Below, one piece after another: positions 3,444 to 64,000 of a stretch of DNA of 64,000 nt. The notes beneath the pieces were generated by a model. That model was not told the DNA's origin. It did no database searches and saw only the letters and a list, made by a program, of their open reading frames with translations. The translations under genes and the position numbers were made by a program. Every line of letters starts with the position of its first letter. Positions within the stretch are counted from its first letter, which is position 1. Source of the stretch: Nocardia bhagyanarayanae (GTDB taxonomy: Bacteria; Actinomycetota; Actinomycetes; Mycobacteriales; Mycobacteriaceae); contig NZ_VFPG01000001.1 of the NCBI RefSeq assembly GCF_006716565.1, positions 5,890,001 through 5,954,000 of the forward strand. The letters run 5' to 3'.

Positions 3444-3458
3444 CATGACGAAACGGAA

Positions 3459-3477: not shown

Positions 3478-3484
3478 GAGCACC

Positions 3485-12784: not shown

Positions 12785-13003
12785 GGCGATAACGCTAGTT
12801 CCGGCCCGATGACCGGCGCTTCTCGATTCCTGACCGATAAAGTCCGTATCACCGCCGACCTGGGCATTTTCCGGGTACACCCCTGCTTTCTACGATTTGC
12901 ACACGACCCACAGCCCGAGTGCCGCTGCCGAATATTTCCGATGCTGACCGGAAACCCGGATCGGGGAGGCATGCGGGCTCTAGTTCGGCCGCCATCCGGC
13001 AAT

Positions 13004-13040
13004 GGCCCGGGTTCGCGTCGTTCGACGTCGAACCCGGGCC
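13004..13040 (-). terminator. Terminator of the PapA5-like gene
   Basis: Perfect 12-bp inverted repeat GGCCCGGGTTCG (13004-13015) / CGAACCCGGGCC (13029-13040), 13-nt loop, located 18 bp beyond the stop codon of the minus-strand gene ending at 13058. Confidence 0.65.
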
Positions 13041-13057
13041 GCGTTACTCGCGCGGAG

Positions 13058-26091: not shown

Positions 26092-26096
26092 GCCCT

Positions 26097-28230: not shown

Positions 28231-28231
28231 C

Positions 28232-30571: not shown

Positions 30572-30656
30572 CAAACCTCCAACCAGAGACTAGCGGTTCT
30601 CGAAATCACGGGCAATACCTATGTTTCGGTCGCCGAACGTACTAAAATTTGGTCGC

Positions 30657-34424: not shown

Positions 34425-37400
34425 TCATCGCGCCGCCTCGACGGTCGATTCGGCCGCCTTCGGCGCCGGGATGTAGCCGACCTCCGCACAGTGGGCCAAA
34501 TAGACCTGGACCAGTTGCTCGATCGGCGGACAGTCGATGCCCGCCGCGCCGAGTACCCGCCGGGTATACGCGCAATCGGCGTAGGAGCTCTCCTCGTAGT
34601 GGATGTAGCCGAAGAGCTCGATGCCGTACTTGAACATCTCCAGGGTCTGGCTGTCGTAGACCTCGTCGGTGCCGCGGCGATAGATCTCCCGTTCGGTGAC
34701 CCGGCGATGGAATTCCTCGAGCGGCACGAGATCTACCTGGTACCCCGCCTGTTGGACGTTGCGCACGACGTCGTAGTAGCGCCGGATATCCGGGTTGGTC
34801 AGGTGGTAGGTCTCCCGATAGGTCGGTCTGCGCAACCCGATGTGCACGATGGCCGCGCTGACATAGTCGACCGGGGAGATGTCCCAGTACACCGGCGTCA
34901 GCATGGTCTCGCCGCTCTCGATCATCGTCTTGAGGATGTCGTAGTAGGCGCCCTTGACGCTCACCTCCGAGAATGGGTACCGCCCGGTGACGCTGTCGCC
35001 CATGATGTTTCCCGGCCGTACGATGTCCCACAGCAGGCCACGCTCGCTCGCCGCCCTGATGAGTTTCTCGGACTCGTACTTCGTCTGCTGGTACGGCAGA
35101 TGGTCGTAGCCCTGGCCCAATTCGAGGTCGCGCTCGGTGAACGGCGGGTTGTTGAAGTTGAGCCGGTCACCCAGTGCACTGAAGCTGGAGACGTACACGA
35201 GATACCTGCCCCGTGACTGGAGCGCGAAATCGATGGCGCGCCTGGTGCCTTCGACGTTGATCGGGGCCAGTGCGTCGTAGAAGGTGACGAGCGTGGTCCG
35301 GCCCGCGGCGTGAATGGTCAGATCGACCTCTTGCGCGATTCTGTGCCAGGTCGTCTCGTCCAGGCCGAACCGGTCCTTCGATACGTCACCGAGCAATGGC
35401 GTGACCCTGGCCGCGAAGGCGGCGTCGAGGGCGCCCTCCGGGTCGTAGGTGGCAAGGAAGTGCTTGATCCGTTTCTCGGCCCCGGCCAAGGAGGTGCCAC
35501 GCACCAGGCAGGTCACCCGAACGTCGGTGTGCGCCAGCAGATCGTGCAGCACCTTGCCGCCGAGCACACCGGTGACGCCGGTGATGAAGACCGATTCCAC
35601 CGCGATCGGTGCCTCCATGGTGACGACGGGGATGTCGTCCTGCACATCGACCGCGCGTGCGTCGGCCGTGCCCTGCGGAGCGCCGATCGACGGGGTCGCG
35701 GCCGCGATGATCCCTTCGGCGACGAGGTAGTCGGCGAGCGAGCTGATAGTCGGGTACAGCTCGATCGACTCCGCCGGAATCTTGACCTCGTGCAGCTTCA
35801 TGAGCCGGTTCAGCATCCGCACCGTGGCCACGGAGTCGAATCCGAAGTCGACGAAATCCGCGTCCAGCTCGAGTTCCGCCGGATCCGTCTTGGTGAGATC
35901 GGCGAAGATATCGCGGATCTGCTCCCGCAGTAGGGCGCGCAGCTCATCGTCGGATTCCGCGGGCGCAGCGGGTTCCGGCTCGGCCGCGATCGGGAAAGCG
36001 GCCACCATGGCGCCGTCTCCGTCCCCGGTTTCGGTGGTGTTCGCCTCGCCCCCCTCCGAGATACTCTGCGCGGTCGCACCATTCGACCGGTGGCCATTAC
36101 GCGGACCGGAACCGGTCAGCTGCGGGCTCTGCGCGACAACCGTCTTGGCGACGAGTTGCGAGGTCCCGGTGTCGTTTCGATCGACCTGCGAGGAATCGCG
36201 AGCGGTGGACTCGGTGCGGCGTCGGTAGTCCTCGGGCACGATCCAATGCCTGCGCCGCGCGAAGGCGTACGTGGGCAGGCTGACAATACGACCGAAGGGG
36301 CGCTCGTAAACCCGTTCCCACTCCACGGTCCACCCGCCGGCCCACAATTCGGCCGCGCGCGGCAGGTTGCCGGAGCGCAGCAGGCCGCGCATCTCGGTCC
36401 GGTCCGCCTCGGATTCACCGGGTAGCTCGTCGAGCTCGCGATGGGTGCGGGCCACGCCTCGGAACACCAGCAGCCCCGCCGCGGGCACGCGCGCGGCGGG
36501 ATCGGCCGCACTCTCCAGCAGCTCGACCAGTTGCGCGGTCGAGGTGGCCACCACGGCAAGCCGATGCTCGAACGACACCCGGCCGACGGCCAGTGTCCAG
36601 GCCACGTCCGCGAGCGGCAGCGGGTTCTCCCGCAGCTGCCGAGCCAATCGGCCGACCGCCTCGGTCAGGCGATCGGCGTCGCGCGCCGACAGCATCACAA
36701 GCCGCGGCTGGTCATCCGCCTCCGACGGTGGGAGCTGGCCGGCGTCGGCGAGAATCACATGGGCATTCGACCCGCCCGCGCCGAACGAGCTGACAGCGGT
36801 GATTCGCGGTGTGCCGTCGTCGGGCCGCGGCCACGCGGTGGGTGTGTCGATGATCCGGAACGGGGTCGCGCCGAAGTCGATCGCCGGGTTCGACGGGTCG
36901 CTGTGCAGGTTCGGCGCCATCGTGTCGTGCCGCAGTTGCAGCAGCGCTTTCACCACGCCCGCCGCGCCCGCGGCCGCCTCCAGGTGCCCGACACTCGATT
37001 TCGCCGAGCCGATGCCGCAGTAGCCCCGCTCCGCCGTAGACCGGCGGTAGGCCCTGGTCAGCGCCGCTATCTCGATCGGATCACCCAGTGCGGTACCGGT
37101 GCCGTGTGCCTCGACGTAGCCGATGTCGCGGGCATCCACCCCGGCCGTGGTCAGGGCACGGCCGATGAGATCGGCCTGTGCCGTCGGATTCGGCACCGTG
37201 AACCCGTTGGTGCGGCCGCCGTGGTTGACGGCGCTGCCCCGGATCACGCCGTAGACCCGGTCTCCATCGGCGCGGGCATGCCGTAAAGGCTTGAGCACCA
37301 GGGTGACCACGCCCTCGCCAGGCACGTAGCCGTCACCGCCTGCGCCGAACGAGCGGCAGCGGCCATCGGTGGAGGCCCATCGCCCGTAGCCGAGCAACAA

Positions 37401-40400: not shown

Positions 40401-43400
40401 GCTCAGTTGCCGCACCGACGGGTGATCGAAGACCACCGTCGGCCGCAGTGACAACCCGTAGCGGGCATTGACCCGGTCGATGATCTTGACAGCGAGAATC
40501 GAGTCGACGCCGTATTCGGACAGCGGCAGCCCCGGGTGCACTTCGGCGCCCGATACCCCCAGCCCCTCCGCGACCATGCCGGTGACCTCGGCCTCCAGGC
40601 GCGAAATATCCACCGCGTCCACATGATCGGGCGATGTGGACGGGGTCGCGATGCCAACCGCATCCTGCTGCGGCAGTTCGGCCACGAGCGCGGGCACGGA
40701 GTCGCTCACCCCCGCCAGCAGGCGGAAACTCGGCTCCGTGTCGGCGGACAGCCCGGGACCCCAAGCCCGCACGCCGGTGTAGCCCGCGTTCGCCAGCGCG
40801 ACACGCCACTGGTCCTCGGAAAGCAACGGCGAGTGCGCGATTCGCAGTTCGGGATCCCGATACCCGTGCCAGCCGTCGAGCAGTCCGAAGGTCAGCGCGA
40901 GCACCTCGAGATCGGTGGTCGCCTCGGTGAACGCCAGCACACCCGACGGCGCGAGCAGACGGCGGACATGATGCAGTGCGGGTCCGATCGCCCGCACCGC
41001 GTGTAAGACGTTGGCACACACCACGAGGTCGGCGCTCTCGACCGGGAAGCCCTGCGTCACCGGATCGGCCTCGATATCCAGCACCCCGAAACGCATTTCG
41101 GCTCGGTCGGGGAAGGTGCGCCTGCCGTGCGCGACGAAGCTCTGCGACACGTCGGTGTAGTGGTATTCGAACGACGCACCGGAGGCGACCAGTGCGGATA
41201 CCACGGCGTGCGTCGAGCCGCCGGTGCCCGCGCCGACCTCCACCACCCGCAGCGGCGCGGCATTGCCGGTCCGCTCCTGCGCGAGGGCCGCCACCAGATC
41301 GGCGAGCAGGCCGTTGGCGAAGTCATAGGCCGCGTTCCCCCGGTAGATCGCACCGACCAAATCGAGTTCGCCGCGCGGGAACAGCACCTCGGTCGCCGCC
41401 AGCTCGCCGCGCAGCACCCGTGGGTAGGCGGCCAGGCAGGCGTCGACCAGCGTCACATACGGTTCGGTCTGGGGGAATCGGGCGAGCAGGTCCGCGCGCA
41501 TCCACGTCGTTCCCGGTGGTGGCCCGGTAACCACGATGGCGTCGCCCTCGCCGCGCACCAATCCGTGCCGGAGCAGGATGTCGAGGCAGCTGGTGAGCAG
41601 TCGCCGGAAGCTTGGCAGCGCACCGATTCGACCGAGCACCGATTCGACCGACCACTCCCCCGTCGTAAGTCCAAGGTCGGCCAGTACGCCGAACAGTCGC
41701 ATCGCCGCGTAGCGCCCCAGCTCCGTTTGTCCGGGCTCGACGATCCCGCCCTGGCGCGGGGTGGACTCGAATCGTGCCACCGCCGCGGCGAATCCCGACT
41801 TCGGTGGCGCGATGATCCAGTAATCCCGTTGCTCGAACGGGTAGCCGGGCAGCGGTATCCGTCGGGCTGGTTCGGTCCAGTCGATCGCGGCTCCCGCGAC
41901 CCACTGTCGTGCCACCTGTTCGGGGGACGTCGCCGACCCGAGTTCCGCCGACCGCGTGGAAGCGCCCAGCGCTCCGGTCACCACGGGGCTCGCCTGGTCG
42001 CCGAGGTATTGCTCGAGCGCGGTTGCCACCGCATGGGGGCTGGTCGCGACGACCGCGAGCCGATACCCGAGCGCGGGCCTGCCGACCTGCAGCGTGCGCA
42101 CCGCATCGGCGAAATCGGCGGGATCCAGCGCGCGGAAATGCCGCGCCATCGTCTCGGCATAGCGCCGGAGCTGACCGGCCGACCGCGCCGAAAGAACGAA
42201 GACCTCCGGTTCGCCCGTCGCCGCGGGCCGCGCCCGCTGGTCGATGAACTCCGAGAGCACCACATGGGCATTCGCACCGCCCGCGCCGAATGCGCTGATC
42301 CCCGCACGACGCGGCGCCGCGATGCCGTCGACGGTTGCGCGCGGCCAGTCTTCGAGCTGCTGCGGCAGGTGGAACGGCACCGTGTCGAACGCGACCGCGG
42401 GATTGAGCTGTGCCGCATGCAAGGTCGGCGCGATGCGGCCGTGCCGGAATTGCAGCAGCACCCTGGTGAGGCCCGCGATACCCGCGGCCGCCTCCAGATG
42501 CCCGATATTCGATTTGGTCGAGCCGAGCGCACGCTGCCGCCCCTCGCCGCCGGGTTGCCCGAATACCGTTGCCAGGCCAGCGATTTCGATCGGATCGCCG
42601 AGGGCGGTGCCGGTGCCGTGCGCCTCGAGGTAGCCGATCGTCCCTGGTTCGACTCCGGCCGCGCGTAGCGCCTCGCTGATCACCTCGGCCTGCGCCCCGG
42701 GATGGGGCACGCTGTACCCGGCGGTCTGCCCCCCGTGATTCACCGCGCTGCCCAGCACCAAGCCGTGGATGGTGTCGCCGTCGGCGAGGGCGGTGCGCAG
42801 CGGTTTGAGATAGACCGCGCCAACCCCTTCGCCGGGCACGTAACCGTCGGCCCCCGCGCCGAACGGCCTGCACCTGCCGGTGTCCGACACCATTCCCAAA
42901 CTGCTCAGCAGCAGAAACTTGTCCTGGTGCAGCAGCAGGTTCACACCGCCGACGATCGCCGCGTCGCACTCGCCGTCCAGCAGACTGCGCCGGGCCAGAT
43001 GCAGCGCGGTGAGGGACGCCGAACACGCCGTGTCCACGGTGAGGCTCGGCCCGCGCAGGCCGAGAGAGTACGACGTCCGGTTGGCAATGGACGACGGAAT
43101 CGATGCCACTGCGACCGGATCGCCGTGACGCGTGGCCTCCACGCCGAGCAGTCGGTAGTCGCTCCACGTCGCGCCGACGAACACGCCGACCCGCCGATCC
43201 CGGACGGCAGGATCCTCGTGGTGGTAGCCCGCGTGTTCGAGCGCCGCGTACGCCTGCTGGAGGAACAGCCGCTCCTGCGGATCCATGAGCGGGGCGTGTG
43301 CGGGCGGAATTCGAAAGAACTGCGGATCGAAACCGGCCACATCCCGCAGGAATCCACCCGTCATCGGCGGGGCGCCCGCCGAGTGCTCGGCGGCGGTGAG

Positions 43401-52200: not shown

Positions 52201-55200
52201 AACTCGATTGGCCGGGCAGGCCGACCACCGCGGACGCCGAGGAGAACAGCAGGAAGAACCGCAGTGCGCGCGGTGCGGTCAGCTCGTGCAGATGCCAGGC
52301 GCCGTGCAGTTTCGGCGCGAACACCCGGCCCAGTCGCGTCGCGGTCTGCTCGGCGATCACCCCGTCATCGAGCACACCCGCCAGGTGAACCACGCCGGCC
52401 AGCGGTGGGAGTTCACGGTCGATCCAGTCCAGTGTGGCCGCTACCGCAGCACGGTCGGCCACGTCGAGGGCGCGGACTTCGACACGCGCGCCACGTGCCC
52501 TGAGTTCGGTGATCAGCTGGATTGCCGTGGCGTCCGGTGCGCCCCGACCGGCCAGGACCAGGCTGCGGGTGCCGCGGTCGACCAGCCAGCGGGCCAGTGC
52601 CCGGCCGATTCCGCCCAGTCCCCCGGTGATCAGCACCGTCTGCGCGGTGGCCGCGTCGAGGAAACCGTCCTGTCCCGGTCGGTGTTGCTGTGCCGGAACA
52701 AGCCGCGGCAGCAGCCGTCTTCCGCCACGCAGCGCGAGCTGCCGGTGCGGTGCGGTCGCGAGTATTTCGGCGACGACGGCGTCCGCGTCCGCTGCCGATT
52801 GTTCGTCGAGATCGATGATCCGGCAGCCGATTTCATGCTGCTCTAGTTGCGCGCTCCGGGCAAAGCCCCAGACTGCGGCTTGGTCCGGCGCGACCCGATC
52901 GGACGTGTCCACTCGCTGCCCGTTGCGGGTGAGCAACCACACCGCGGGTTCGCCGGTGAGGGCCGCGGCCTGCACGAGGTGCAGTGCGCCGACGACCGCC
53001 TGCTGAGCCCGATCCGGCGTCGCGGCATCGGTCTCGACCACCGGTGTCGTGTAGACGATGCCGCGCAGCGGCGTCCGCCCGTCCCCTGCCGCACCGAGCA
53101 AGGCCCGCACCGCCGCCGGTACCCCGAGGTCGACGTCGAACTCGTCGTCCGCGCGGAACCCGAACCCGCTGCCGGGCCGCGCCACCGCGCATTGCGCGCC
53201 CGAGGCCCGCAGGCGAGCCGCGATAGCGTCGCCCGGTCCGTCCGCGGCGCCGACGACGAGCCAGCGGCCCACCGCGGCGCCGGATGCGACCGGCCCGGCG
53301 TCCTGCCAGGCCATCCGGTAGACATCCCGGAGCGCCGCGTCGCCGCGCGTACGTTCGGTGGCCATCCGCATCACTCGCAGACCGTCCGCGATCAGCACCG
53401 GAGCACCCTCCTCGTCGAGCAGTCGAACCTCGGCGACACACAGCTGTGGCGTCTGCTCGAGGACGCGCACATGGCCGAATCGGACTCGCCCACCCACGGC
53501 TCCAACGCTCACCCGATCGATGGCAAGGGGCACCCAGGTGTGCCGCTCCCCGGTCTGCGGCGCCATCGCGGCATAGGTCGCCTGGAAGGCCGCATCGAGC
53601 ACGGCAGGATGCACCATGTCGGCGCCGGGATCGGTATCGGGATCCGACAGCCTGACCACGGCTTCTCGATCACCGGTCCGGACCTCGACGACGCGCCGGA
53701 ACGCGGGACCGTAGTGCAGACCGGCCGCGGCGAGCATCTGATAGAAGTCGTCGGCGGATTGCCATGCGGCGCAACGATTCAGCAGATCGGCGAGGGTGAC
53801 TTCGGCGGCGGTTCGGATGGCGGCGGTGCTGACCTGCGCACGGGCGTGGGTGCGCCAGCCGTCCGCCGTTCGGCTCGCGACCTCCACGGCGAGACCATCG
53901 GGTTCGGGCGCGAACCGCACCTGAACGGGATGGTCCTTCGTGATCGTCAGACCGCTGGCGATCACGAGATCCTCGATCGCGACGACCTCGGCGCCGGTCA
54001 CCTCCCGCGCCGTCGCCACGATGGTGGCGACGAACCAAGCGGCGGGAACCACCACATCGCGATCGACCACGTGATCGGCCAGATAGTGCGGTGCGGCCGG
54101 GGCGAGGGTCAGGGCGAAATGCGTGGAATCCCCCGGCAGATCGAGGCGACGCGGGACGTACGGAAGCGGCGCGTTCACTCCCGTTGCCTGCGCGGTAGCG
54201 GTCGATCGACGACCGGCATCTCCGGGGCGGTGCGTGGTCGCGTCGTGTTCGTCCGAGCCGAGCGCCCGCGTCCTCTGCGGCTGATCGGCCCAGTAGCGCT
54301 GCCGTTGGAAAGGGTAGGTCGGAGCGAGTACCCGTCGCCGTGCGTGCGGCCGGTGCACGCGTTCCCAATCGATGGTCACGCCGCCGACATAGAGCTGCGC
54401 CAGCGCATTCGCCGTCATCTCCCGGTCGTCGCGGCCGCGACGCAGTGCCGCGACAAACCTCGCGGTGGTCTCGATCGCACGACCGCCCAGCGTGGAAAGT
54501 GTCGGCTGCGGCCCTATTTCGAGGAATGCGCCGATACCGAGTTCCGCGAGGGCCCGCATCCCCTCGGCGAAGCGAACCGGCTGCCGAGCATGTGTCGCCC
54601 AGTACTCTGCGGTGAGCTCTCCGGCGCACAAAGGTGCGCCGGTGACATTCGAGATCAGCGGGATCGCGGGGTCCCGCCACACGACGCGCCGGGCGGCATC
54701 GGCCAGATCGTCGAGAATCGGGTCCATCAGCGGTGAATGGAACGCATGCGACACATCGAGGGTGCTCGCGCGAATTCCCGCTGCTGCCACATCATCGCGC
54801 AGCAGTTCGAGTGAGCGGCGCGGTCCGGCGACGACGATCTGAGCCGGGCTGTTGAATCCGGCGATCGCCACCGCGGGCTCGTAGCGTTCGAGCAGCCGGG
54901 CGATCGTCGCCGGATCGGCCTCGACCGCCAGCATCGCGCCGCCATCCGGCAGGCTCTGCATCAGTCTGCCGCGGACGGCGATCAACCGCAGCGCATCGTC
55001 TACCTGCATCGCGCCTGCCGCGCACGCGGCCACATATTCGCCGACACTGTGGCCGAGCACCGCGGCGGGCGTAATCCCCCAGTCACGCCACATCTCCCAC
55101 AGTGCCCACTCCACCGCGAACAGCACCGGCTGGGTGAACACAGTCCGGCTGAGGACCTCCGCGGACCCACGGTCGGCGTACAAGGCATCGAGAAGTCCGA

Positions 55201-58200
55201 TACCGTCCGCGATCGGACCCAGGACATCATCGCAGTGCCGCAGCGCCCGCCGGAACACCGGTTCGGACTCGAACAACCCCCGGGCCATACCCGGATATTG
55301 CGATCCCTGCCCGGTGAACAGCAGTGCGACCTTCGGTGCGGCCGAGGTCCGCTCGACCCGGCCGCGCACTGCGGACCGCATATCCGCTGCCGCAGCGCGC
55401 AATCGAGCGGCGGCGGCGTCCGCCGTCTCGGCGACCACCGCCAGGCGCTCCTCGAAGTGGGTGCGCGCGCTCGCGGCGGTGTAGGCGAAATCGGCGAGCT
55501 CGCCACCACTCCCACCCAACCGGTCCGCCCAGCGCTTCGCCGACTCGACCAGTGCGACGTCGTCACGTGCCGACAGCACCAGTACCTGCGGTGCCGAATC
55601 AGACGGGGTGCGAGCCGGTTCCGGTGCGGGCTGCCGCAGAATGAGGTGTGCATTGGTACCGCTCATTCCGAAGGAGCTGATACCGACCGTGCGGCTATGA
55701 CCGGTCTCCGGCCACGCACGCGGCTCCCGCACAACCTCCAGCGGCAGCGCCGACCAGTCGATCAGTGGATTCGGCGTGTGGAAATGCAGGCTCGGCGGGA
55801 TCTTCGCGTGCTGCATCATCAGCACGGCCTTGATCACACCGGCGACACCGGCCGCCGCTTCGGTGTGCCCGATGTTGGTCTTGACCGAACCGATCAGCAA
55901 TGGCGCGGCGCGGTTCTCGCCGTAGACCTCGGCAAGCGCCGTCGCCTCGATCGGATCACCCAACGGTGTGCCGGTGCCGTGAGCTTCCACGTAGTCGACC
56001 TCATCGGGTCGAATTCCGCCCTGTGCCAAAGCATCGCGGATGACCCGCTGCTGGGCCGGTCCGTTGGGCGCGGTGAGCCCATTGGACCGGCCGTCATGAT
56101 TCACCCCGATGCCATGAACAACCGCGAGCACCCGGTCGCCGTGCCTGCGGGCCGCGGACAGCCGCGTCAGCACCAGGACACCGCAACCGTCCGCGCGGAC
56201 ATAGCCATTGGCATCGGCGTCGAATGCCCGCGAACGGCCGTCGGGCGACAACGACGCGAGACGGCAGAACCCAATCGTGGTCTCCGGGGCCAGCTGCAGA
56301 TTGACGCCGCCCACCAGTGCCAGATCGCAGCGCCCCGCCCGCAGGCCGTCCCACGCCGACTGCACGGCGACCAGCGACGAGGAGCACGCCGTGTCGAGGG
56401 TGATCGCCGGACCCTGCAACCCGAGCGCGTAGGCCACCCGCCCGGCTGCGACGCTCGGCGCCGAACCGATCACCGAGTAGGCGCCGATCGAAACCGGATC
56501 CGTTGCCTGTGTCGGTGTTCCGGCGTACTCACTGAAGCACAAGCCGACGAACACCCCGGTCCGGCTGCCCGCCAAACTGCCCGGCGCCCGTCCGGACCGC
56601 TCCAGCGCCTCCCAGCTCGTCTCCAGGAGCAGCCGCTGCTGTGGATCCATGGCCTTGGCCTCGGCCGCGCCGATGCCGAAGAAGGCGGGATCGAATTCGT
56701 CGGCGCCGTCGACGAATCCACCCCACCGCGTGTACATCGTGCCGAGGGCGGCGGGGTCCGGGTCGTAGAAGGCGTCGACGTCCCACCGCTGCGGCGGCAC
56801 CTCGGTGATCGCGTCCCGGCCCGCCCACAGCATGTCCCAGAACTCCTCCGGGGTACGGACGCCACCCGGGAACCGGCAGGCCATGCCGACGATAACGATC
56901 GGGTCGTCGTCCTCCTCGCCGATGCGCGCGGCGGCAGGGGCGTCTCGGTCGTGACGGACGGCGCTCGCGACCCGGTAACCGCTCTTCGGGCGTTCGGGGT
57001 GACCTGCACGGTCCGAATGATCGACCTGACCTGCACCGTTCGAGTCGTTGAGCCGGTATTCGCTCTTCGGGCGGTCGAGATGATCCGCACGGTCCGAATG
57101 GTCGACCTGACCCGCACCGTTGGAGTGATTGATCCGGTAGTCAGTATCCTTGTGCTGCAACAACTTCGCGATATCGCGCACGGTCGGATAGTCGAAGACG
57201 AGTCCGACGGGTAGAGGTGCGCCGATCTCAGCTGCCAACGCGGCGCGCAACTCCATCCCGGTGAGCGAGTCGACACCGATGTCGTGCAACGGCATATCGG
57301 GATCGATTTCGGTGGTCCGATCGAGTACGCGCATCACGACTCGCTGCACAACCGCTATCCAGGGAGCCGTATCGCTCTGAGTATCAGTGCTTCCCGAAGG
57401 ATTCCGCCCCGCCGTCTGCCGCGAAGTGGTATCAGCACCGGTAGGTTGCGTGTCTCGCATCGACTCCCGTTTCGCTTCCATGGCTGTACCGCGGCCCGGA
57501 TAAGCGCGGTACCAACGATCGGCCGCGAAATCGAAGACGCCGGGACAAGGACTGTCGACCGTCAGCAATCGGTCCAACGCCGCGGTGGCGTCCGTCGCAC
57601 GCAGCGGCGGCAGCCCCCGCCGATCGAGTCGCCGCGTGAGCTCGGGTCGCCCCGCGGCCATCCCGACATCGGCAAAGGGTCCCCACGCGATGCTCAGCGC
57701 GGGCAGCCCGTCGGCGCGCCGCCGCCACGCCAATGCGTCCAGTGCCGCGTTGGCGGCGGCATAGTTCGCCTGCCCCGGAGTGCCGAGCCAACCCGCGACC
57801 GACGAATAGGTGATGAACAGGTCCAGTTCCATGCCGCGTGTCAACTCGTCCAGGTGTCGGGCCGCACGGTATTTCGGTCCGAGGACGGCCTGGAAGCGAG
57901 GCCAGGACAAGTCGGTGACGACACCGTCGTCGAGCACGCCCGCGCAATGGATAACGCCACGCAGCGGTGGCAACCCCGATTCGTCGATCTCGGCCAGCAG
58001 CTCCGCCACCGCTTCCCGGTGCGCGACGTCGACTCGACGGGACACCACGCGTACGCCGTCGGCACGCAGCGAAGCCATGAGCCGTTCACCCGCGTCGTCC
58101 GGTCCGCGCCTGCCGACCAGCAGCAGCGTGCGCGCCCCGTGTGCGGCGAGCCACCGTGCCGCTGCCGCGCCGAGTCCGCCGAATCCCCCCGTGACCAGGT

Positions 58201-61200
58201 AGGTGCCGGTGCCCACGACGGTTCGGGCGCCGTCGGTAGCCTCATGGGTGGTCTTGCCTCGCACCACAATCGGGCTCGCGTGATGACGCTGCCACAAGGC
58301 ACTGAACGCGGTCTCCGCGTCGTCCGCCTCGTGCACCGCCGGTTGCCAGGCGGCCAACGTACCGTTGCCGAGCAGTTCCAGCACCGTGCGCAAGATCGTG
58401 CCCAGACGTTCCGGACCGGCCGAAGCCGGGTCGACCACTCGGTAATCGATGCCGTGCCCGGCCGGTCCGCCGTGCTCTCGCCGAGACTGACCTGGATCAT
58501 CGATGTCGATGAATCGGCCGCGCGGGCCGACGATTTCCGCGGCACGCGTGGTGAACTCACCGGCGATCGCGTTGAGGACGATATCGGCTCCCCGGCCGTC
58601 GGTGAGCGCGTGGAGTTGGTCGGCGAGGCCGTGCACGCGCCAGGTGTCGACCTGCGGGATATCGAGTCCGACGCCCGCCGCCCATCGACCGAGGGCGCGG
58701 GTGCCGAGCACGTGCGCCCCCGCCCACGCGGCCAACCGCACCGCCGCCATGCCGATTCCGTCCGCGGGAGCGTGCACCAGCACGTGTTCGCCCGCGCGCA
58801 GACCCGCCACCTCGAACAGTCCGTACCACGCGGTAACGAACGCGGCCGGGATGCTCGCGCCTTCGGTGAACGTCATCCCCTCGGGCAGCGGAGCCACCAG
58901 CAGGTGGTCCACCGTGACGTAGCGCGCGAAACTACCACTCGCCAATGCCACCACGCGATCACCGACGCGGAATTCGGTGACGCCGTCGCCCAGCGCGGTG
59001 ACATAGCCCGAGCATTCCAGACCGAGCGGCGCGGGGGCGTCCGGGTGAGTGCCCAACGCCAGCCATAGGTCACGGGCGTTCAGACCGGTGGCTTCGACCG
59101 CGATTTCCACTTCGCCCGCCTCAGGCGCGGGACGGGCGGTCGAATCCCAGTGCAGTCGGCCGAGATCACCGGATCGGTGGGCCCCCAGGCGGTAGTTGGC
59201 CGCCACATCCGAATCCACCACTCCGTCCGCCAGACGGGCGGCGAGCCACCGACCATCCCGGACGGCGAGTTCACGGTCTTCGATCCCGGTGACCAAGCCA
59301 TCGATGACCAGCGCCACGTCGACGGCACGGTCCGCCTCCAGATCGACCAACCGACAACCGAATTCGGGACGCTCCGTGGCGAGGGCGCGCCCCAGCCCCC
59401 ACATCAATGCCTGCTCGGGGTCGGGGCGGTCGAAGTTCGAGACTCGTTGGGCACCCACGGTGAACAAACACAGCGTGGACGGCACGCGACCGACACCGTC
59501 CAGTGAGCGAGCGAGCCGCAGCACAGTGCCGACCCGGACCGCCGCGGAACCGGTGGTCCACGCGTAGGCGATGCCACCCAACGGTGCTCCGGCGAGGAAC
59601 TCCTCGAGGTCCGCCTCGGCGGGATCGACCGACAGCCCTCGGCCGAGAACATCTTCCGGGCGAACCACGCGTGTCCGGATATTCCGCGCCGACAGCCCGG
59701 CGGCGACGGCATCCCCCGCCGGTCCGTCGCTGAACACCAGCCATCGACCTGCCGAGTCCTGGCCTGTGGAGAACTGTTCACCGATCGGTGTCCACTCGAG
59801 ATGATGGAGCAGCCGATCGACCTGGGCTGCCGCCTGCTCGGGACCAACGGACTCCACGTGCACGCCCGAGGTTCGCCTCACCCGTGGGGTGTCGGTACCC
59901 CCGGCCGCAATGAGGCACGCGCCGCCGATCGTCGCGATCGTGCGTCCGGCACTGTCGATCAGCATCGCGTCACCAGCGATCACTCGCTCGCTGCGATCGG
60001 TCACCCTAACGTGGCAGCGGAGACTGTCGCCGACGGCAACCGCACTGCTGGACACCGTGATTCGATCAATCGAAGCAGGCAGAAACAGCCCGTCCGGATC
60101 GGCGGTCAACACGATGCTGTGCAAACAGGCATCGAGCAGAACCGGATCGAGCGAACCCGACTCGCTCGTAGCGAACGACCGCAGCGAGGTCTCGGATTCG
60201 GTGGCGCTGATCCGCCGGAACTCGGCGGCGCACCGGTAGTCCTCGCCCAACCACAGACCCAGCTCCGACACCCTGTCGTAGTAGGAAGGCCAGACCGCGA
60301 GAGCCTCCGCGCTGTCGACGTAGTCGCCGCCGCGATACGGAACAGACCCCGCATCGCCGCCGATCGCCCGCAACGCCGCCCGAGCGAAGGTGGTCGGTTC
60401 ACCGCCGCCGGAGTCACTGAGGAACCGCACTTCGTATCCGCTCGCCGCAGGCTCCATCTGCACCTCGATCGCACTGGCGGACCGGACCGCGAGCGGCGAG
60501 GTCAGCCTCAGCCGGGTGACCTCCCACCGATCGGCACCGGGCAGTTCAGCCGCGATCCCGGCGAGTTGCGCGCCCATCCAAGCGGCGGGAACCGTTGGCA
60601 CACCGTGCAACCGATGGCCACTGAACATCCCGGGCTCGACCACCAACACGCTGGTCGACAACCCGCCGACCGGCGGTTCAGGCGCAACGTCATCGGCCGA
60701 CCCTTGGCGCGTCGGATTGTCGACCTGGCGCGAAGGGGCGCGGTCATGGACCGACCGCGGCAATGACAGATCACCGGGCGCGAGGTCATCGACTGGCCGC
60801 GAGGCCCCGAGGTCGAGCCAATGCCGCTTCCGCTGGAACGGATACGTCGGCAGTTCGATTCGCCGCCATGGTCGTTCGGAATACAATGTGTGCCAATCGA
60901 TATCGGCTCCTTCGACGTACCGGTGAGCTGTCGCCGCCGACTCGCCGGGGCCGGTGGACAGTTCCGCGACCGTGCCTGCGGCGCTGCTCCCGGTCGCCAC
61001 CGACTCGAGGGCCGCGCGCAGTTGTGCTGCGGTGTCGACGACGATCGCCACTCGGGCGGCGAAATGCGTGCGGCCGGTATTCGCCGAGGCGCAGAGGTCA
61101 CGAAGTCCGATGTCAGGGTGTTCGGTCAGGAAATCCAGGTATCGAGCGGCCAGGCCACGCAATGCGTCCGCACTCTTCGCGGACAGGGCCAGCAGGTGCT

Positions 61201-64000
61201 CGCCCGCATCGTCCGGAGTGTCGGCGTGCGAAATAGCAGGGGGTTCTTCGAGTACCACGTGCGCATTCGTCCCGCTGATACCGAACGCGCTCACCCCCGC
61301 CCGGCGCGGCCGTGACGAGCGCGGCCAGGCCCGTTCCTCGGCCACGACACGCACACCGATGTCGTCCCAATCGATGTGCGGATTCCCGGACCGGAAATGC
61401 AGGGACGGTGGAATCCGGTCGTGTCGCATGGACTCGACCACCTTGATGATGTTGGCGATCCCGGCCGCGGCCTGGGTGTGCCCGATATTCGATTTCACCG
61501 AGCCGATCAATAGCGGTGCGCTGCCGGGCCGTTCGCCGGTCAGCGCCGAGGCGAGCGCGTTCACTTCGATCGGATCGCCGAGCGCCGTTCCCGTGCCGTG
61601 CGTCTCGACATAGTCGATATCCGCCGCCGTCAGCGTCGCGTCCGCCAGCGCCGCCCGGATAACCCTTTCCTGCGCGGGCCCATTCGGCGCGCTCAAGCCC
61701 TGGCTGCGGCCATCGGAGTTGACCGCCGAGCCCCGCACCAAGGCAAGTACCCGATCCCCATCGCGGCGCGCGTCCGACAACCGTTTGAGCACAAGCGTTC
61801 CCGCGCCGTCGCTCCACACCACACCGTCGGCGCGTGCATCGAAACTCTTACACCGCCCGTCCGCGGCCAGCCCGCGCGCCCGCGCGAAATAGATGTCGAG
61901 CGAGGGTGTCAGCACCACGGACGCACCGCACGCCAGCGCCAGATCGCTTTCCCCGCGCCGGAGGCTCTGCACCGCCAGATGCACGGTCACCAGCGACGAG
62001 GAACACGCGGTATCAATGGTCAGACTCGGACCGTTGGCGCCGAAGAAATACGACAGCCGCCCCGAAGCGACACTCGCCAGATTCCCCGTGCCGAACCAAG
62101 CATTCGGCGCCACATCGGCCCGCGCCATCCGCTCCGCATAGTCGGTCGACATCAAACCGACGAACACTCCGGTACGACTGCCTGCCAGCCGGTCGGCTGG
62201 ATACCCCGCGTGCTCCAACGCTTCCCAGGAGGTTTCGAGCAACAACCGCTGCTGCGGATCGAGCATCCGCGCCTCGCCGACCGAAATATCGAAAAACCCC
62301 GCATCGAACTCTTCGACGCCATCGACAAACCCGCCCCACCGGGTATATGTCTTCCCCTCGGCATCCGGATCCGCATCGAAGTACGCCTCGACATCCCACC
62401 GATCCGCGGGAACCTCGGTCACCGCGTCGACTTCCTCCGACACCAGCCGCCATAGGTCCCAGGGCCCCCGGACCCCGCCCGGATACCGGCATCCCATCCC
62501 GATAATCGCGATCGCGTCGTCGTACTCACTCGATCCGACGACATCCTGCTCCCGCGGGACCGCAACCTCGGGCCGCCCGCCCGGTTCCGGCTGCGCAAAG
62601 GCGGTGCGCCGATCGGCTCCGAGGGGCGCGGTCGTGGTGCGGTCCTCGGGTTCATCCGTCGCCGTGGCGGACTCAGCTTCTTCGGCTGCGGCGAACGTCG
62701 CGGTGCGGTCGAGGTTGTGCACTGCCACGGCGGTTGCGCGTGACGGGTGCTGTTCGGCGGCGAGCCGGGCGATTTCGTCCGCGACGGCGGCAACAGTCGG
62801 GTGGTCGAAGAGCAGCGTGGCGGGCAGCCGGACCCCGAGTTCGGAGGACAAGGCGTTCCGAAGTTCCACTGCCATCATCGAATCCAGGCCGAACTCGCGC
62901 AGTGGGGTGCGGTCGGCGACCGGTGTCTTGCGGCCCAGCGCGGTGGTGGCATGGGCGCGAACCACCGTCAGGAAGTCCGGCATCGGGGGCTGCGCGGTTT
63001 GCGTGGCCGCCATCGGTCGGGTGGCCGCGGCCGGCTGGGTCGCGGCGGGCTCCGAGCTCGGGGTGGAGGACGGGTAGACCGCTACGACGCCGTCAACGGC
63101 CAACAGCGACTTCAGGGTTCGGGCTCCGTCCTCGACATCGAGCTGTGCCACGCCGTGGCGCTCCCAGGCGCGGCGGGCCGCCGCGTTCAGGCCCTGTGCC
63201 ATGCCGGTGCCTGCCCACGGCCCCCATTGAATGCTCAGGGCGGGCTGGCCACTGGCAATCCGGACCCGGGCGAGTGCGTCGAGATAGGCGTTGGCGGCCG
63301 CGTAGTTCCCTTGTCCGGCGATGCCAACGGTGGCGCTGACCGAGGAGAACAGCACGAAAAGGTCGAGCGAATGGGCAGCGGTGAGCTCGTGCAGATTCCA
63401 GGCACCCAGCGCCTTGCCCATGAATACCCGGCGCACCCGCTCGGGCGACTGCTCGATCAACAGCGCGTCGTCAAGCGCCCCGGCACAGTGCACGACCCCG
63501 GCAAGCCGAGGAAGCTCGTCACCGAATCGGGAAATCAAGGCAGACAGCGCTTCTCGATCAGCGACATCGACCAGCACCGTTTCGACCCGCGTGCCGAGCG
63601 CCGCGATATCCGCGATCACCGCCGCGGCCTGCGCATTCGGACTATGCCTGCCCGCCAGCACGACTGTTCCGGCGCCTGCCTCGGCAAGTACGCGGCCCGC
63701 GAGCAGACCCAACGCACCGAGCCCGCCGGTGATCAAATATGCTGCGGTCCTGTGAAGTTCCGTATCGCCGCGGAACTCCGGGAGACGCGGCGCATAAAAC
63801 CCGTTGCCGCGCTCCGCGGCGCCAGGACCGTCCAGGCCTGTTACGTCGGCGGGCGCCACCACGCGTGGCGAATAACGATCCCGTCCCCGCAGCGCGATCG
63901 CGGGATCGGCGGCAGCGGCGAGGAGTTCCGCGACGAGCCGGCGGTCATCGGATCGAGCGCGATCCGGCAGATCGATCGAACGGCAGCGCAGCTCCGGAAG
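46250..64000 (-). CDS. Hybrid cis/trans-AT PKS, N-terminus outside window
   Basis: At least 5916 aa are visible; the frame is open to the window edge, so earlier modules lie beyond 64000. Visible order from the edge: KR-ACP (end of a module), KS-DH-ER-KR-ACP, KS-AT-DH-KR-ACP, KS-KR-ACP, KS. All four KS keep Cys and both His. Only one module has its own AT. The first two complete modules resemble cis-AT ketosynthases, while the last two have trans-AT wording, so the gene looks chimeric. An 81-bp tandem repeat lies in one linker (56972-57133). The C-terminal KS pairs with the DH-ACP-KR of the next protein, with a 4-bp ATGA overlap. Module entries give positions. Confidence 0.95.
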   Translation of the reverse strand, partial: LPELRCRSIDLPDRARSDDRRLVAELLAAAADPAIALRGRDRYSPRVVAPADVTGLDGPGAAERGNGFYAPRLPEFRGDTELHRTAAYLITGGLGALGLLAGRVLAEAGAGTVVLAGRHSPNAQAAAVIADIAALGTRVETVLVDVADREALSALISRFGDELPRLAGVVHCAGALDDALLIEQSPERVRRVFMGKALGAWNLHELTAAHSLDLFVLFSSVSATVGIAGQGNYAAANAYLDALARVRIASGQPALSIQWGPWAGTGMAQGLNAAARRAWERHGVAQLDVEDGARTLKSLLAVDGVVAVYPSSTPSSEPAATQPAAATRPMAATQTAQPPMPDFLTVVRAHATTALGRKTPVADRTPLREFGLDSMMAVELRNALSSELGVRLPATLLFDHPTVAAVADEIARLAAEQHPSRATAVAVHNLDRTATFAAAEEAESATATDEPEDRTTTAPLGADRRTAFAQPEPGGRPEVAVPREQDVVGSSEYDDAIAIIGMGCRYPGGVRGPWDLWRLVSEEVDAVTEVPADRWDVEAYFDADPDAEGKTYTRWGGFVDGVEEFDAGFFDISVGEARMLDPQQRLLLETSWEALEHAGYPADRLAGSRTGVFVGLMSTDYAERMARADVAPNAWFGTGNLASVASGRLSYFFGANGPSLTIDTACSSSLVTVHLAVQSLRRGESDLALACGASVVLTPSLDIYFARARGLAADGRCKSFDARADGVVWSDGAGTLVLKRLSDARRDGDRVLALVRGSAVNSDGRSQGLSAPNGPAQERVIRAALADATLTAADIDYVETHGTGTALGDPIEVNALASALTGERPGSAPLLIGSVKSNIGHTQAAAGIANIIKVVESMRHDRIPPSLHFRSGNPHIDWDDIGVRVVAEERAWPRSSRPRRAGVSAFGISGTNAHVVLEEPPAISHADTPDDAGEHLLALSAKSADALRGLAARYLDFLTEHPDIGLRDLCASANTGRTHFAARVAIVVDTAAQLRAALESVATGSSAAGTVAELSTGPGESAATAHRYVEGADIDWHTLYSERPWRRIELPTYPFQRKRHWLDLGASRPVDDLAPGDLSLPRSVHDRAPSRQVDNPTRQGSADDVAPEPPVGGLSTSVLVVEPGMFSGHRLHGVPTVPAAWMGAQLAGIAAELPGADRWEVTRLRLTSPLAVRSASAIEVQMEPAASGYEVRFLSDSGGGEPTTFARAALRAIGGDAGSVPYRGGDYVDSAEALAVWPSYYDRVSELGLWLGEDYRCAAEFRRISATESETSLRSFATSESGSLDPVLLDACLHSIVLTADPDGLFLPASIDRITVSSSAVAVGDSLRCHVRVTDRSERVIAGDAMLIDSAGRTIATIGGACLIAAGGTDTPRVRRTSGVHVESVGPEQAAAQVDRLLHHLEWTPIGEQFSTGQDSAGRWLVFSDGPAGDAVAAGLSARNIRTRVVRPEDVLGRGLSVDPAEADLEEFLAGAPLGGIAYAWTTGSAAVRVGTVLRLARSLDGVGRVPSTLCLFTVGAQRVSNFDRPDPEQALMWGLGRALATERPEFGCRLVDLEADRAVDVALVIDGLVTGIEDRELAVRDGRWLAARLADGVVDSDVAANYRLGAHRSGDLGRLHWDSTARPAPEAGEVEIAVEATGLNARDLWLALGTHPDAPAPLGLECSGYVTALGDGVTEFRVGDRVVALASGSFARYVTVDHLLVAPLPEGMTFTEGASIPAAFVTAWYGLFEVAGLRAGEHVLVHAPADGIGMAAVRLAAWAGAHVLGTRALGRWAAGVGLDIPQVDTWRVHGLADQLHALTDGRGADIVLNAIAGEFTTRAAEIVGPRGRFIDIDDPGQSRREHGGPAGHGIDYRVVDPASAGPERLGTILRTVLELLGNGTLAAWQPAVHEADDAETAFSALWQRHHASPIVVRGKTTHEATDGARTVVGTGTYLVTGGFGGLGAAAARWLAAHGARTLLLVGRRGPDDAGERLMASLRADGVRVVSRRVDVAHREAVAELLAEIDESGLPPLRGVIHCAGVLDDGVVTDLSWPRFQAVLGPKYRAARHLDELTRGMELDLFITYSSVAGWLGTPGQANYAAANAALDALAWRRRADGLPALSIAWGPFADVGMAAGRPELTRRLDRRGLPPLRATDATAALDRLLTVDSPCPGVFDFAADRWYRAYPGRGTAMEAKRESMRDTQPTGADTTSRQTAGRNPSGSTDTQSDTAPWIAVVQRVVMRVLDRTTEIDPDMPLHDIGVDSLTGMELRAALAAEIGAPLPVGLVFDYPTVRDIAKLLQHKDTDYRINHSNGAGQVDHSDRADHLDRPKSEYRLNDSNGAGQVDHSDRAGHPERPKSGYRVASAVRHDRDAPAAARIGEEDDDPIVIVGMACRFPGGVRTPEEFWDMLWAGRDAITEVPPQRWDVDAFYDPDPAALGTMYTRWGGFVDGADEFDPAFFGIGAAEAKAMDPQQRLLLETSWEALERSGRAPGSLAGSRTGVFVGLCFSEYAGTPTQATDPVSIGAYSVIGSAPSVAAGRVAYALGLQGPAITLDTACSSSLVAVQSAWDGLRAGRCDLALVGGVNLQLAPETTIGFCRLASLSPDGRSRAFDADANGYVRADGCGVLVLTRLSAARRHGDRVLAVVHGIGVNHDGRSNGLTAPNGPAQQRVIRDALAQGGIRPDEVDYVEAHGTGTPLGDPIEATALAEVYGENRAAPLLIGSVKTNIGHTEAAAGVAGVIKAVLMMQHAKIPPSLHFHTPNPLIDWSALPLEVVREPRAWPETGHSRTVGISSFGMSGTNAHLILRQPAPEPARTPSDSAPQVLVLSARDDVALVESAKRWADRLGGSGGELADFAYTAASARTHFEERLAVVAETADAAAARLRAAAADMRSAVRGRVERTSAAPKVALLFTGQGSQYPGMARGLFESEPVFRRALRHCDDVLGPIADGIGLLDALYADRGSAEVLSRTVFTQPVLFAVEWALWEMWRDWGITPAAVLGHSVGEYVAACAAGAMQVDDALRLIAVRGRLMQSLPDGGAMLAVEADPATIARLLERYEPAVAIAGFNSPAQIVVAGPRRSLELLRDDVAAAGIRASTLDVSHAFHSPLMDPILDDLADAARRVVWRDPAIPLISNVTGAPLCAGELTAEYWATHARQPVRFAEGMRALAELGIGAFLEIGPQPTLSTLGGRAIETTARFVAALRRGRDDREMTANALAQLYVGGVTIDWERVHRPHARRRVLAPTYPFQRQRYWADQPQRTRALGSDEHDATTHRPGDAGRRSTATAQATGVNAPLPYVPRRLDLPGDSTHFALTLAPAAPHYLADHVVDRDVVVPAAWFVATIVATAREVTGAEVVAIEDLVIASGLTITKDHPVQVRFAPEPDGLAVEVASRTADGWRTHARAQVSTAAIRTAAEVTLADLLNRCAAWQSADDFYQMLAAAGLHYGPAFRRVVEVRTGDREAVVRLSDPDTDPGADMVHPAVLDAAFQATYAAMAPQTGERHTWVPLAIDRVSVGAVGGRVRFGHVRVLEQTPQLCVAEVRLLDEEGAPVLIADGLRVMRMATERTRGDAALRDVYRMAWQDAGPVASGAAVGRWLVVGAADGPGDAIAARLRASGAQCAVARPGSGFGFRADDEFDVDLGVPAAVRALLGAAGDGRTPLRGIVYTTPVVETDAATPDRAQQAVVGALHLVQAAALTGEPAVWLLTRNGQRVDTSDRVAPDQAAVWGFARSAQLEQHEIGCRIIDLDEQSAADADAVVAEILATAPHRQLALRGGRRLLPRLVPAQQHRPGQDGFLDAATAQTVLITGGLGGIGRALARWLVDRGTRSLVLAGRGAPDATAIQLITELRARGARVEVRALDVADRAAVAATLDWIDRELPPLAGVVHLAGVLDDGVIAEQTATRLGRVFAPKLHGAWHLHELTAPRALRFFLLFSSASAVVGLPGQSSYSAANAFLDGLAELRRAAGLPALSIAWGPWAGTGMVDRLGDGDVQRLSRRGYQLLSDRRALEILSHTIVSDSGALTVLPLDLSTLHRSGVETPDVLAGLAGGDTLPPDPSSVAVQRPPTQDRTDFHTEMAALVRRCVGLAPDADLDRPLHELGLDSVAAIEIRDELSRSVGHRLPATLAFEYPTPRAVIDLLVQLGPAGRQPDSRHHDMSTASSQAGQARDAVSRPPQRDVPAETFSPGAPASANGVRHGEVRAAGPAHNENGAYAAARSDVDSETVRVGGLSFSAPSRGEHPSDGVGDIAIVGVSGRYPGADGLDEYWRVLLEGRDCITEIPRQRWDHSRYFVPDRHNPHTSYTKWGGFLDDVDCFDPLFFAISPREAEVMDPQERLFLQTAWAALEDAGHSRADLARGGLRPEEAGVFVGIMWGTYQMFGAEESRLGRGTLPASTFWSVANRVSHALDFQGPSMAVDTACSSSLTALHLACQSLRTGECRLAVVGGVNLSLHPYKFVALSQGQFASTDGRCRSFGAGGDGYVAGEGVGALVLRPLADAEADGDTIHAVIKGTAVNHGGRVNGFTVPNPTVQAAVIRSALRNGGVDPESVSYIEAHGTGTALGDPIEIAGLTKVFGGTGRAELPIGSVKSNVGHLEAAAGVAALTKVLLQLRHETIVPSLHATPPNPNIDFASTSFRIPERPLPWPSGGPGQPRRATISSFGAGGSNANVVLEEYVDQRPATRWSGDQVVPVSARDTERLTEYVAALDRFLSTRQPNLADLAYTMQVGRLTGTARTAFTARDLDELRAAVRAWVEDAPGARGTARAAADDRVAGWLNGREIDWETVRENGPHRRISLPTYPFARERYWIPDVAAADEGSAAVPETGTPREQQRALAPVWRPAEPDRGDVRDRRPLVLYDAETPASLIETLMATFGDPQRLIRVTDAPHGDGLARADFAAGAQLGRALVARYPDTDSVIDLCDLAPLPSGHRPTTDLGRMGFYQAVIDARAGALILLHMAAGHPGVDGPECTPLAGLVAALADEIGDVHTRTVHLVDHRATVCADPKSLIEILGAECESVGDGAPRVRYRAGRRETIGLDSVTPRPGLVVDPARTYVVTGGTRGLGAEFAAMLVERGARRLVVLGREPLPPESEWSRLAGTDGPQAAKVRRLAALRDRGVAIRTYFGSLTDEAALARFFAEVRRELGPIGGVLHCAGSVSAESPAFVRKTAPAVADVLAPKISGTEVLAEVLAVDRPDFFVLFSSVSAVLPGLAVGLSDYAMANAHLDRFAEAQHANGRTWFRSIQWPSFRGTGFGEVTTSAYRSTRLPTMTAAAGFDLLDGILGMVDTPVVLPYHGAPLQLSLHPSKHAVASTSAAAPPAVDAAPRGERGRAYQELLEIFSDELKLAPARFEGHKRFEEYGADSVLIASAVRRIEKVTGQPFDPALVLEYPTLDALADLLTEQHPELFAATSHSNPTAPQAARGPARTVGHAATNGDGAHRTGGLPASDQGRGGSVAPIAVVGIGCRLPGGDDPNAFWRMLATGESGIREVDPARWDPARYYRPTGGQGLTNSKWGGFVDGVDLFDPEFFGISDALAWQMDPLQRLLLEASVLATADAGYRRDELAGRRIGVYAGSRTANYFNRIPVADRHTIVGIGQNFIAARISDYFDWHAGNLILDSACSSSLVSVHLACQALRAGELDAALAGGVEVLLDETPFLTLAAAGVLSPNGRCATFSEHADGFVPGEGAALLLLKRLDDAVRDGDRIYAVLRGSAIGNDGHTMGITTPNMHAQIEVITAALDAAGMSPDALSYVEAHGTGTMIGDPIELKALATVLGDRSRGPEPCAVGSVKTNIGHLLSAAGIAGAVKTILAVHHGALPPSLHCENLNPRFAFTGSPLYINRELRPWRSADGRPRAAGVSSFGFGGTNAHLIVEEAPAAHRPVRNPLSPPVFRKRSFMLPKTVPSRSTDPGSRIVLPSAPTTSFLRVEPLV
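46410..47690 (-). other. First half of a split module: C-terminal KS
   Basis: KS with Cys codon 47185-47187 in LDSACSSSLVSVH, EAHGTGTMIGDP and KTNIGHLLSAAG, so all three catalytic residues are there and elongation is expected. About 55 residues follow, rich in Arg, Pro and Ser, and the protein ends. Extension requires the DH-ACP-KR on the next protein, perhaps through docking by this tail. Confidence 0.88.
47830..51320 (-). other. AT-less module KS-KR-ACP
   Basis: KS about 51315-50020, Cys codon 50786-50788 in VDTACSSSL, wording VNHGGRVNGFTVPNP. Post-AT linker LPTYPFARERYW near 49650. KR about 49480-48120 with VVTGGTRGLGAEFA and LSDYAMANAHLD; the LDD motif of B-type KRs is replaced (AGSVSAESP). 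ACP about 48055-47830 with YGADSVL. No DH, so a beta-hydroxyl is expected unless a later DH removes it. Confidence 0.88.
51600..56910 (-). other. Cis-AT module KS-AT-DH-KR-ACP
   Basis: KS about 56905-55650 (Cys codon 56384-56386). AT about 55330-54400 with FTGQGSQYPGMA, Ser codon 55046-55048 in LGHSVGEY and HAFHS, the malonyl-type signature. DH about 54130-53300, where HVVDRDVVVP has Arg in place of the Gly of HxxxGxxxxP, with the second motif HPAVLDAAFQ normal. KR about 53290-51950 with LITGGLGGIGRA, the LDD motif (AGVLDDGV) and QSSYSAANAFLD. ACP about 51835-51605 with LGLDSVA. Confidence 0.9.
56972..57133. repeat. Two tandem 81-bp units in a PKS linker
   Basis: Units 56972-57052 and 57053-57133, each 27 codons, followed by the start of a third (CCGGTAGTC). 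In protein they read YRINHSNGAGQVDHSDRADH... and YRLNDSNGAGQVDHSDRAGH..., Asp/His/Ser-rich and probably disordered. They lie between the ACP of one module and the KS of the next, keep the frame and lengthen the linker. Confidence 0.9.
57155..62525 (-). other. AT-less module KS-DH-ER-KR-ACP
   Basis: KS about 62520-61240 (Cys codon 62003-62005 in IDTACSSSL). Only about 400 bp separate it from the post-AT motif LPTYPFQRKRHW, so the AT is missing. DH about 60660-59880 with HRLHGVPTVP and LLDACLH intact. ER about 59160-58240; its cofactor loop reads HAPADGIGMAA where HAATGGVGMAA is usual. KR about 58210-57480 with LVTGGFGGLGAA, LDD and QANYAAANAALD. ACP about 57365-57155 with IGVDSLT. Confidence 0.88.
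62750..64000 (-). other. End of an upstream module: KR-ACP
   Basis: KR with LITGGLGALGLLAG near 63700-63745, LDD motif (AGALDDALL) and GNYAAANAYLDAL near 63270-63310, preceded by part of the structural KR half up to the edge. ACP about 63000-62750 with FGLDSMM. Further domains of this module lie outside. Confidence 0.88.

Follow-up and report, generated by a model that had tools for sequence, protein, structure and literature searches.

The window analysed here, a 64,000-nucleotide stretch of Nocardia bhagyanarayanae DNA (positions 5890001–5954000 of a contig of 6,116,456 bases; flanking stretches on both sides were also examined), probably carries a NOCAP-family cluster whose assembly line mixes cis- and trans-acting ATs and whose plan would give a triene-hydroxyl-triene tail and a resorcylaldehyde head. 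Its product is very probably an aromatic aldehyde that bears a methyl group and a long polyene chain, of the same kind as the nocardiosis-associated polyketide (NOCAP). The features on which this reading rests are collected in Table 1.

Table 1. Features of the cluster, with positions counted from the first letter of the window
Feature	Position	Strand	Remarks
First PKS protein, KS1-AT-DH-KR-ACP / KS2-DH-(ER, judged dead)-KR-ACP / KS3-AT-DH-KR-ACP / KS4-KR-ACP / KS5	46250..64000 in window	-	7199 aa
ER domain of module 2, judged inactive	58253..59140	-	GGVG Gly and conserved Lys replaced
cis-AT of module 3	54383..55342	-	GHSVG, HAFH
KR of module 4	48305..48880	-	module 4 is the sole module of the reducing half without DH; no LDD motif
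KS5, first half of split module 5	46577..47674	-	C terminus of first PKS protein
Second PKS protein, DH-ACP-KR (split module 5) / KS6-MT-ACP / KS7-ACP / KS8-ACP-TR	34425..46253	-	3942 aa
ACP flanked by the DH and KR of split module 5	45045..45284	-	GLDS motif
C-methyltransferase domain of module 6	40770..41315	-	
Terminal thioester reductase domain (predicted aldehyde release)	34848..35585	-	
AT-TE fusion, predicted trans-acting malonyltransferase-type AT plus RifR-type (type II) thioesterase	32547..34373	-	
Small cupin-like protein, candidate ring cyclase or sugar enzyme	32118..32531	-	all Pfam matches below cut-offs
GT2 glycosyltransferase	30621..31415	+	nearest solved structure is dolichol monophosphate mannose synthase
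GDP-mannose 4,6-dehydratase	29549..30574	-	above NCBIfam equivalog cut-off
C-methyltransferase (Methyltransf_13/14), probably acting on sugar	28232..29500	-	
Nucleotide-sugar epimerase/reductase family protein	27283..28275	-	
MycE-type methyltransferase	26097..27323	-	MycE_N domain
EryCIII-like glycosyltransferase	24913..26148	-	Pfam domains pass their cut-offs, the NCBIfam activator-dependent subfamily does not
GT87 membrane glycosyltransferase	23290..24855	-	11 hydrophobic segments; weak NCBIfam mannosyltransferase match, below cut-off
Flavin-containing monooxygenase (FMO)	22004..23293	-	
Cytochrome P450	20643..21992	-	heme-cysteine motif; start ATG 21992 or 21953, searches used frame from 21980
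Separate KS-ACP protein, possibly ninth module	18264..20630	+	outside the interval of the sequence-only reading
GtrA/DPMS membrane protein, possible flippase for polyprenyl-phosphate sugar	17650..18168	-	

The second PKS protein ends in three non-reducing modules and a reductase

The second PKS protein is encoded by a single open frame whose start shares 4 bases with the stop of the first PKS gene. Pfam identified in it three KS domains, four ACP stretches, a methyltransferase, a KR, a DH (aa 14–263) and a terminal reductase of the NAD_binding_4 type (PF07993, E 2e-47). In a scan seeded with the protein's own domains, the boundaries were placed at aa 645–820 for the KR, 913–1280 for KS6, 1647–1828 for the MT, 2007–2378 for KS7, 2635–2696 for the following ACP, 2749–3118 for KS8, 3444–3510 for the last ACP and 3557–3802 for the TR. 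No KR, DH or ER was found in the stretch from KS6 to the reductase. The motifs looked at are all kept, namely the KS Cys and His, the ACP Ser, the SAM motif of the MT, and GxTGxxG and YxxxK of the TR; the ACP that follows the MT carries GVDSI. The sequence-only reading had described three consecutive modules devoid of reducing domains, with a C-methyltransferase in the first of them and a thioester reductase behind the last, and this description was borne out with motifs intact. The NOCAP synthase likewise ends in three non-reducing modules, a methyltransferase and a reductase, and the arrangement found here, with the MT in the first of the three, is that of the NOCAP family. The same genome also contains, about 8 kb to the left of the window and outside the cluster, another NAD_binding_4 reductase ORF, with an open frame of 701 aa.

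The N-terminal part of this protein starts within a module. As read from the sequence, KS5 at the end of the first protein and the DH-ACP-KR of the second are one module split over two proteins, with the ACP lying between its DH and KR.

The first PKS protein carries two built-in ATs

The whole first PKS gene extends from 46250 to 67849 (minus strand; 7199 aa), so that the line begins at 67849, past the window end. Two cis-AT domains are present in its product, at aa 542–857 and 4170–4489. The former belongs to module 1 and sits past the window end; it has TAFH at the place where the AT of module 3 has HAFH, a motif that goes with malonate. Of the eight KS modules on the two PKS proteins, the other six have no AT. 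Next to them stands the separate AT-TE gene, whose product matches Acyl_transf_1 and Thioesterase in Pfam, has GHSLG in both domains and resembles FabD-type malonyltransferases and the RifR thioesterase. The line had been called trans-AT: the AT-TE gene and the six AT-less modules agree with this, but modules 1 and 3 bring their own AT. A purely trans-AT reading was thus dropped, and because the first PKS protein holds two cis-AT domains we consider the line to be mixed cis/trans-AT.

A separate KS-ACP protein is encoded further left. Its active-site stretch is atypical, NASCAGS instead of DTACSSS, and is shared by the window's protein and those of the five relatives with which it was compared; the protein is possibly a ninth module or a starter module.

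The cluster is conserved in a subset of Nocardia genomes

When named genomes were scanned with the reductase, 15 loci came out, every one from Nocardia and at 77–85% identity. Among 150 Nocardia genomes, 21 (that of the window included) had the reductase at an identity of at least 77%, and the next best match by score was at 32%; this gap separates Nocardia genomes with the cluster sharply from those without it. When 296 genomes were drawn from the Actinomycetota and searched at E <= 1e-90, a match was found in only one of them, the window's own.

Six relatives were compared as 60-kb stretches: N. araoensis, N. beijingensis, N. puris, N. paucivorans and Nocardia G132 and G032. The domain order of both PKS proteins is common to all six, except that KR1 is missing in N. 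paucivorans. The N. puris stretch starts inside module 1, and its KS1 thus lies outside the data; the ER of N. puris, the DH2 of G132 and the split-module-5 DH of all seven loci fell below the scan threshold but are present in the alignments. The GLDS motif of the split-module ACP was seen in all seven. Identity to the six relatives was 54–80% for the first PKS protein and 55–87% for the second, several alignments covering only part of the protein; because of these values we regard the locus as a relative within the NOCAP family. The sequence-only reading had offered the NOCAP cluster itself or a close relative, and it is the relationship within the family that stands, identity with the cluster itself not being demonstrable. 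In their aligned parts both PKS proteins are 63–70% identical to those of N. araoensis and N. beijingensis; among the matches listed, entries named N. araoensis and N. beijingensis align with the whole of the second protein at 70% identity, and four entries named Nocardia sp. reach 86–89%.

Outside the PKS genes, the order of the tailoring genes from the cupin to the P450 is kept in all six relatives. The KS-ACP and GtrA genes, which lie next to each other, were present in five of the 60-kb stretches and, after extension, also in N. araoensis, that is in six of six. By contrast, the SDR and AMP-ligase genes at the left edge of the window were not found in all stretches. At 12809–16701 (plus strand) a FadD11-like acyl-CoA ligase, below the model cut-off, lies beside a 640-aa ORF that had no match in Pfam or NCBIfam; the ligase is common to G132, G032 and N. 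beijingensis and is partly visible at the end of the N. araoensis stretch.

The ER of module 2 has lost key residues in all loci

Looking at the reducing half of the line, we found one ER domain in the first PKS protein (aa 2904–3199), which was absent from the sequence-only reading. The three best solved ERs all have GGVG and a Lys, whereas the window's domain reads DGIG and Arg. The first Gly of GGVG is replaced by Asp in six and by Asn in one of the seven loci, and the conserved Lys, which matters for catalysis, by Arg in six and Asp in one. From these replacements the ER of module 2 is judged dead, and the possibility of an active ER leaving a saturated bond in the tail was dropped after the comparison of motifs with the solved ERs and the seven loci. 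The NOCAP aglycone has 22 carbons and consists of a substituted resorcylaldehyde and a 15-carbon tail with two trienes separated by a hydroxyl, so that an ER would be superfluous for it; the loss of key residues in all seven loci thus removes the main misfit with that structure.

The evolutionary rate of ER2 (dN/dS of 0.25, 0.38 and 0.41 in three comparisons) lies at the upper end of the rates obtained for 22 domain segments, and its values indicate that purifying selection still acts on the domain. Since DH domains reach similar values, nothing on ER2 can be concluded from the rate by itself: that of DH2 is 0.31–0.39, and given this likeness to the dead ER, DH2 may also be weak. The catalytic motifs of the other domains were inspected as well. 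DH1, DH2, DH3 and DH5 have kept their His and Asp in all seven loci, and DH2 has kept both HxxxGxxxxP and DxxxH in all of them; in N. bhagyanarayanae the Gly of HxxxGxxxxP is lost from DH1 and DH3. The LDD motif is present in KR1 to KR3 and absent from KR4 of this genome, with departures of one residue in KR1 of N. puris and in KR3 of G032, N. paucivorans and N. puris.

Probable membership in the NOCAP family

The NOCAP synthase, studied in Kuo 2016 and Yuet 2020 (cited in PMC10921412, PMC10394414 and PMC11762266), is described in a passage of PMC10394414 as nonamodular and as coming from patient-derived Nocardia; an excerpt of PMC10921412 lists it among the trans-AT PKSs with proposed programmed module iteration, and a published title gives it as 3 MDa. 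The present cluster is likewise from Nocardia, and its KS domains, eight on the two PKS proteins and one in the KS-ACP gene, are nine in number. The four proteins sum to 1332 kDa, or 2.66 MDa as homodimers, as compared with the published 3 MDa. No NOCAP-labelled sequence was present among the best 120 of the 1561 protein matches, nor was one found by name in the papers searched, and a PDB search for named NOCAP domains gave none in the best 60 of 78 matches to the second PKS protein or the best 60 of 114 to the AT-TE protein. Placed by genus, KS count, size and the descriptions of NOCAP, the cluster is very likely a member of the NOCAP family. Both the resorcylaldehyde head chemistry and the family assignment, which had been proposed from the letters of the DNA, have good support: published statements on NOCAP agree with the cluster in domain order, genus, number of KS domains and size.

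Tailoring and sugar genes

Left of the AT-TE gene lies a group of tailoring genes (Table 1). The small cupin-like protein, encoded beside AT-TE, is 92–98% identical in all six relatives; cupins occur among polyketide cyclases, which makes this protein a candidate enzyme of the ring closure. The GDP-mannose dehydratase, the C-methyltransferase, the epimerase family protein, the MycE-type methyltransferase and the EryCIII-like glycosyltransferase suggest by their family matches a branched, O-methylated 6-deoxy sugar. The GT2, GtrA and GT87 proteins look like a polyprenyl-phosphate-mannose route, a predicted two-compartment scheme. The conserved sugar genes predict the form of the natural glycosylated product. 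The FMO, which has the flavin-dependent monooxygenases 8z12 and 8z16 as its closest structures (E below 5e-65), is encoded beside the P450 (20643–23293, minus strand), and the two are 72–95% conserved in all six relatives.

Proposed assembly and alternatives

In the plan that we favour, modules 1 to 3 (KR and DH, with ER2 dead) would build the outer triene from an acetate-type starter and module 4, with a KR and no DH, would leave the hydroxyl. The split module 5 would then run three times to give the inner triene, and modules 6 to 8 would add three units with their ketones retained, module 6 setting the C-methyl. The reductase would free the aldehyde, and aldol closure from C2 to C7 would yield a 2,4-dihydroxy-5-methyl-6-alkyl-benzaldehyde. 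Along the line, AT-TE would load malonate onto the AT-less modules and edit, and the sugar, FMO and P450 genes would decorate the product. The sum is a backbone of 22 carbons (7 + 15), matching the NOCAP aglycone. Eight single rounds from a two-carbon starter amount to 18 carbons, so that an aglycone of 22 needs two more rounds, that is ten extensions. The sequence itself bears no sign of an iteration of module 5; we infer it from the structure, since three rounds at this module would put the inner triene exactly where NOCAP has one. N. paucivorans has kept the line except for the KR of module 1; this naturally occurring loss may alter the tail, and the tail plan cannot hold unchanged there.

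The same 22 carbons would be reached within the same family if module 1 ran three times for the outer triene, module 2 acted with its KR only (DH2 and ER2 both dead) to leave the hydroxyl, and modules 3 to 5 acted once each for the inner triene, module 4 borrowing the DH of a neighbour. DH2 indeed evolves about as fast as ER2, and trans-AT lines are known in which modules without a DH are dehydrated in trans. However, no DH of module 4 was found in the seven loci scanned, and the intact motifs of DH2 in all seven, together with an N. paucivorans line that lacks KR1 and is hard to reconcile with three reducing rounds at module 1, make this plan less likely than iteration of module 5; we hold it to be distinctly unlikely. 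A NOCAP-related sister pathway with a different tail or decoration, and hence another compound, could account for the limited identity of 63–70% to the aligned parts of the N. araoensis and N. beijingensis PKS proteins, and the KR1 loss shows that the line can vary. Active sites are nonetheless conserved, and the six relatives agree with the window in domain order, N. paucivorans KR1 excepted, and in the arrangement of the tailoring genes between cupin and GtrA, which leaves a sister pathway unlikely.

The fate of the chain end could also differ, if the reductase acted twice to give an alcohol or if a pyrone or alkylresorcinol was released in place of the resorcylaldehyde. Terminal reductases that transfer four electrons are known, the number of reductions cannot be read from the sequence, and none of the ORFs scanned was named a ring cyclase by Pfam, the cupin-like protein being a possible one. 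The aldehyde head of NOCAP agrees with three kept ketones, a C-methyl and release by an NAD(P)-dependent enzyme, and we regard such an alternative release as very improbable.

Comparison with known systems

Beyond Nocardia, the end of the line has counterparts in other bacteria. The search with the second PKS protein gave 1561 matches, of which the best 120 were listed, and 12 non-Nocardia proteins among those listed were examined for domain order. Six of the 12, including two from Pyxidicoccus and one from a Myxococcales MAG, have the DH motif, KR, KS-MT, KS and KS-TR; the KR is absent from five, including those of Kitasatospora, Micromonospora and Dactylosporangium, and the last one (Leptospirales MAG) begins with a KR and has no DH motif. 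By best local alignment, the 12 are 42–58% identical to the second PKS protein over 33–77%, and for at least 10 of them the longest aligned piece is 45–54% identical. The myxobacterial and actinomycete terminal proteins share with the window's protein the end KS-MT-ACP / KS-ACP / KS-ACP-TR, at 45–58% identity over part of its length, and the myxobacterial ones also the split-module DH and KR with an identical HRVHGVRILP motif. We know of no product of these proteins; a literature search on resorcylaldehyde-forming lines in myxobacteria gave no paper with the word resorcylaldehyde among the best 12 of 14 matches, and no paper on these non-Nocardia terminal proteins was listed. In two related terminal proteins (P0053 and P0062) Pfam places an AT fused behind the reductase, and for P0062 the scan also finds an AT after the TR, as if the trans-AT had been joined to the line. 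These non-Nocardia relatives point towards resorcylaldehyde polyketides that are yet to be explored.

Lipid-linked mannose is known from teicoplanin and mannopeptimycin. The ramoplanin mannosyltransferase Ram29 is another such case in natural products (PMC4635501). With the sugar genes and the terminal proteins in mind, we tentatively propose, as a serious possibility short of a firm expectation, that the product is a glycolipid finished outside the membrane: a C- and O-methylated, GDP-mannose-derived 6-deoxy sugar would be transferred in the cytoplasm by the EryCIII-type enzyme, and a second sugar, probably mannose and borne on polyprenyl phosphate, would be loaded by GT2, flipped by GtrA and attached by GT87. 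In the same proposal the terminal resorcylaldehyde protein would be a portable cassette, found also in myxobacteria and several actinomycetes, so that NOCAP-like aldehydes would occur beyond Nocardia.

The iteration of module 5 has a parallel in the etnangien and gladiolin trans-AT PKSs: according to PMC10921412, module 5 of gladiolin (KS, DH, KR, ACP) has been shown to be intrinsically iterative, and that of etnangien builds a triene over three rounds. A KS-DH-KR-ACP module 5 in these two lines is a precedent for an iterating module 5 here. The two systems differ from that of the window in their products and release, and neither is known to give a resorcylaldehyde.

With NOCAP itself the cluster has in common its occurrence in Nocardia, a similar size, a KS count of nine if the KS-ACP protein is included, and the reductase end; the trans-AT character is shared in part, and the iteration proposed for NOCAP is predicted here too. 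The window and the relatives examined have two cis-ATs and an ER judged dead. Altogether, the cluster stands as a sequence branch of its own within the probable NOCAP family. Its odd programming is made testable: an apparently dead ER that is kept, two cis-ATs where the remainder of the line is trans-AT, and a split module with three rounds to perform under the proposed plan.
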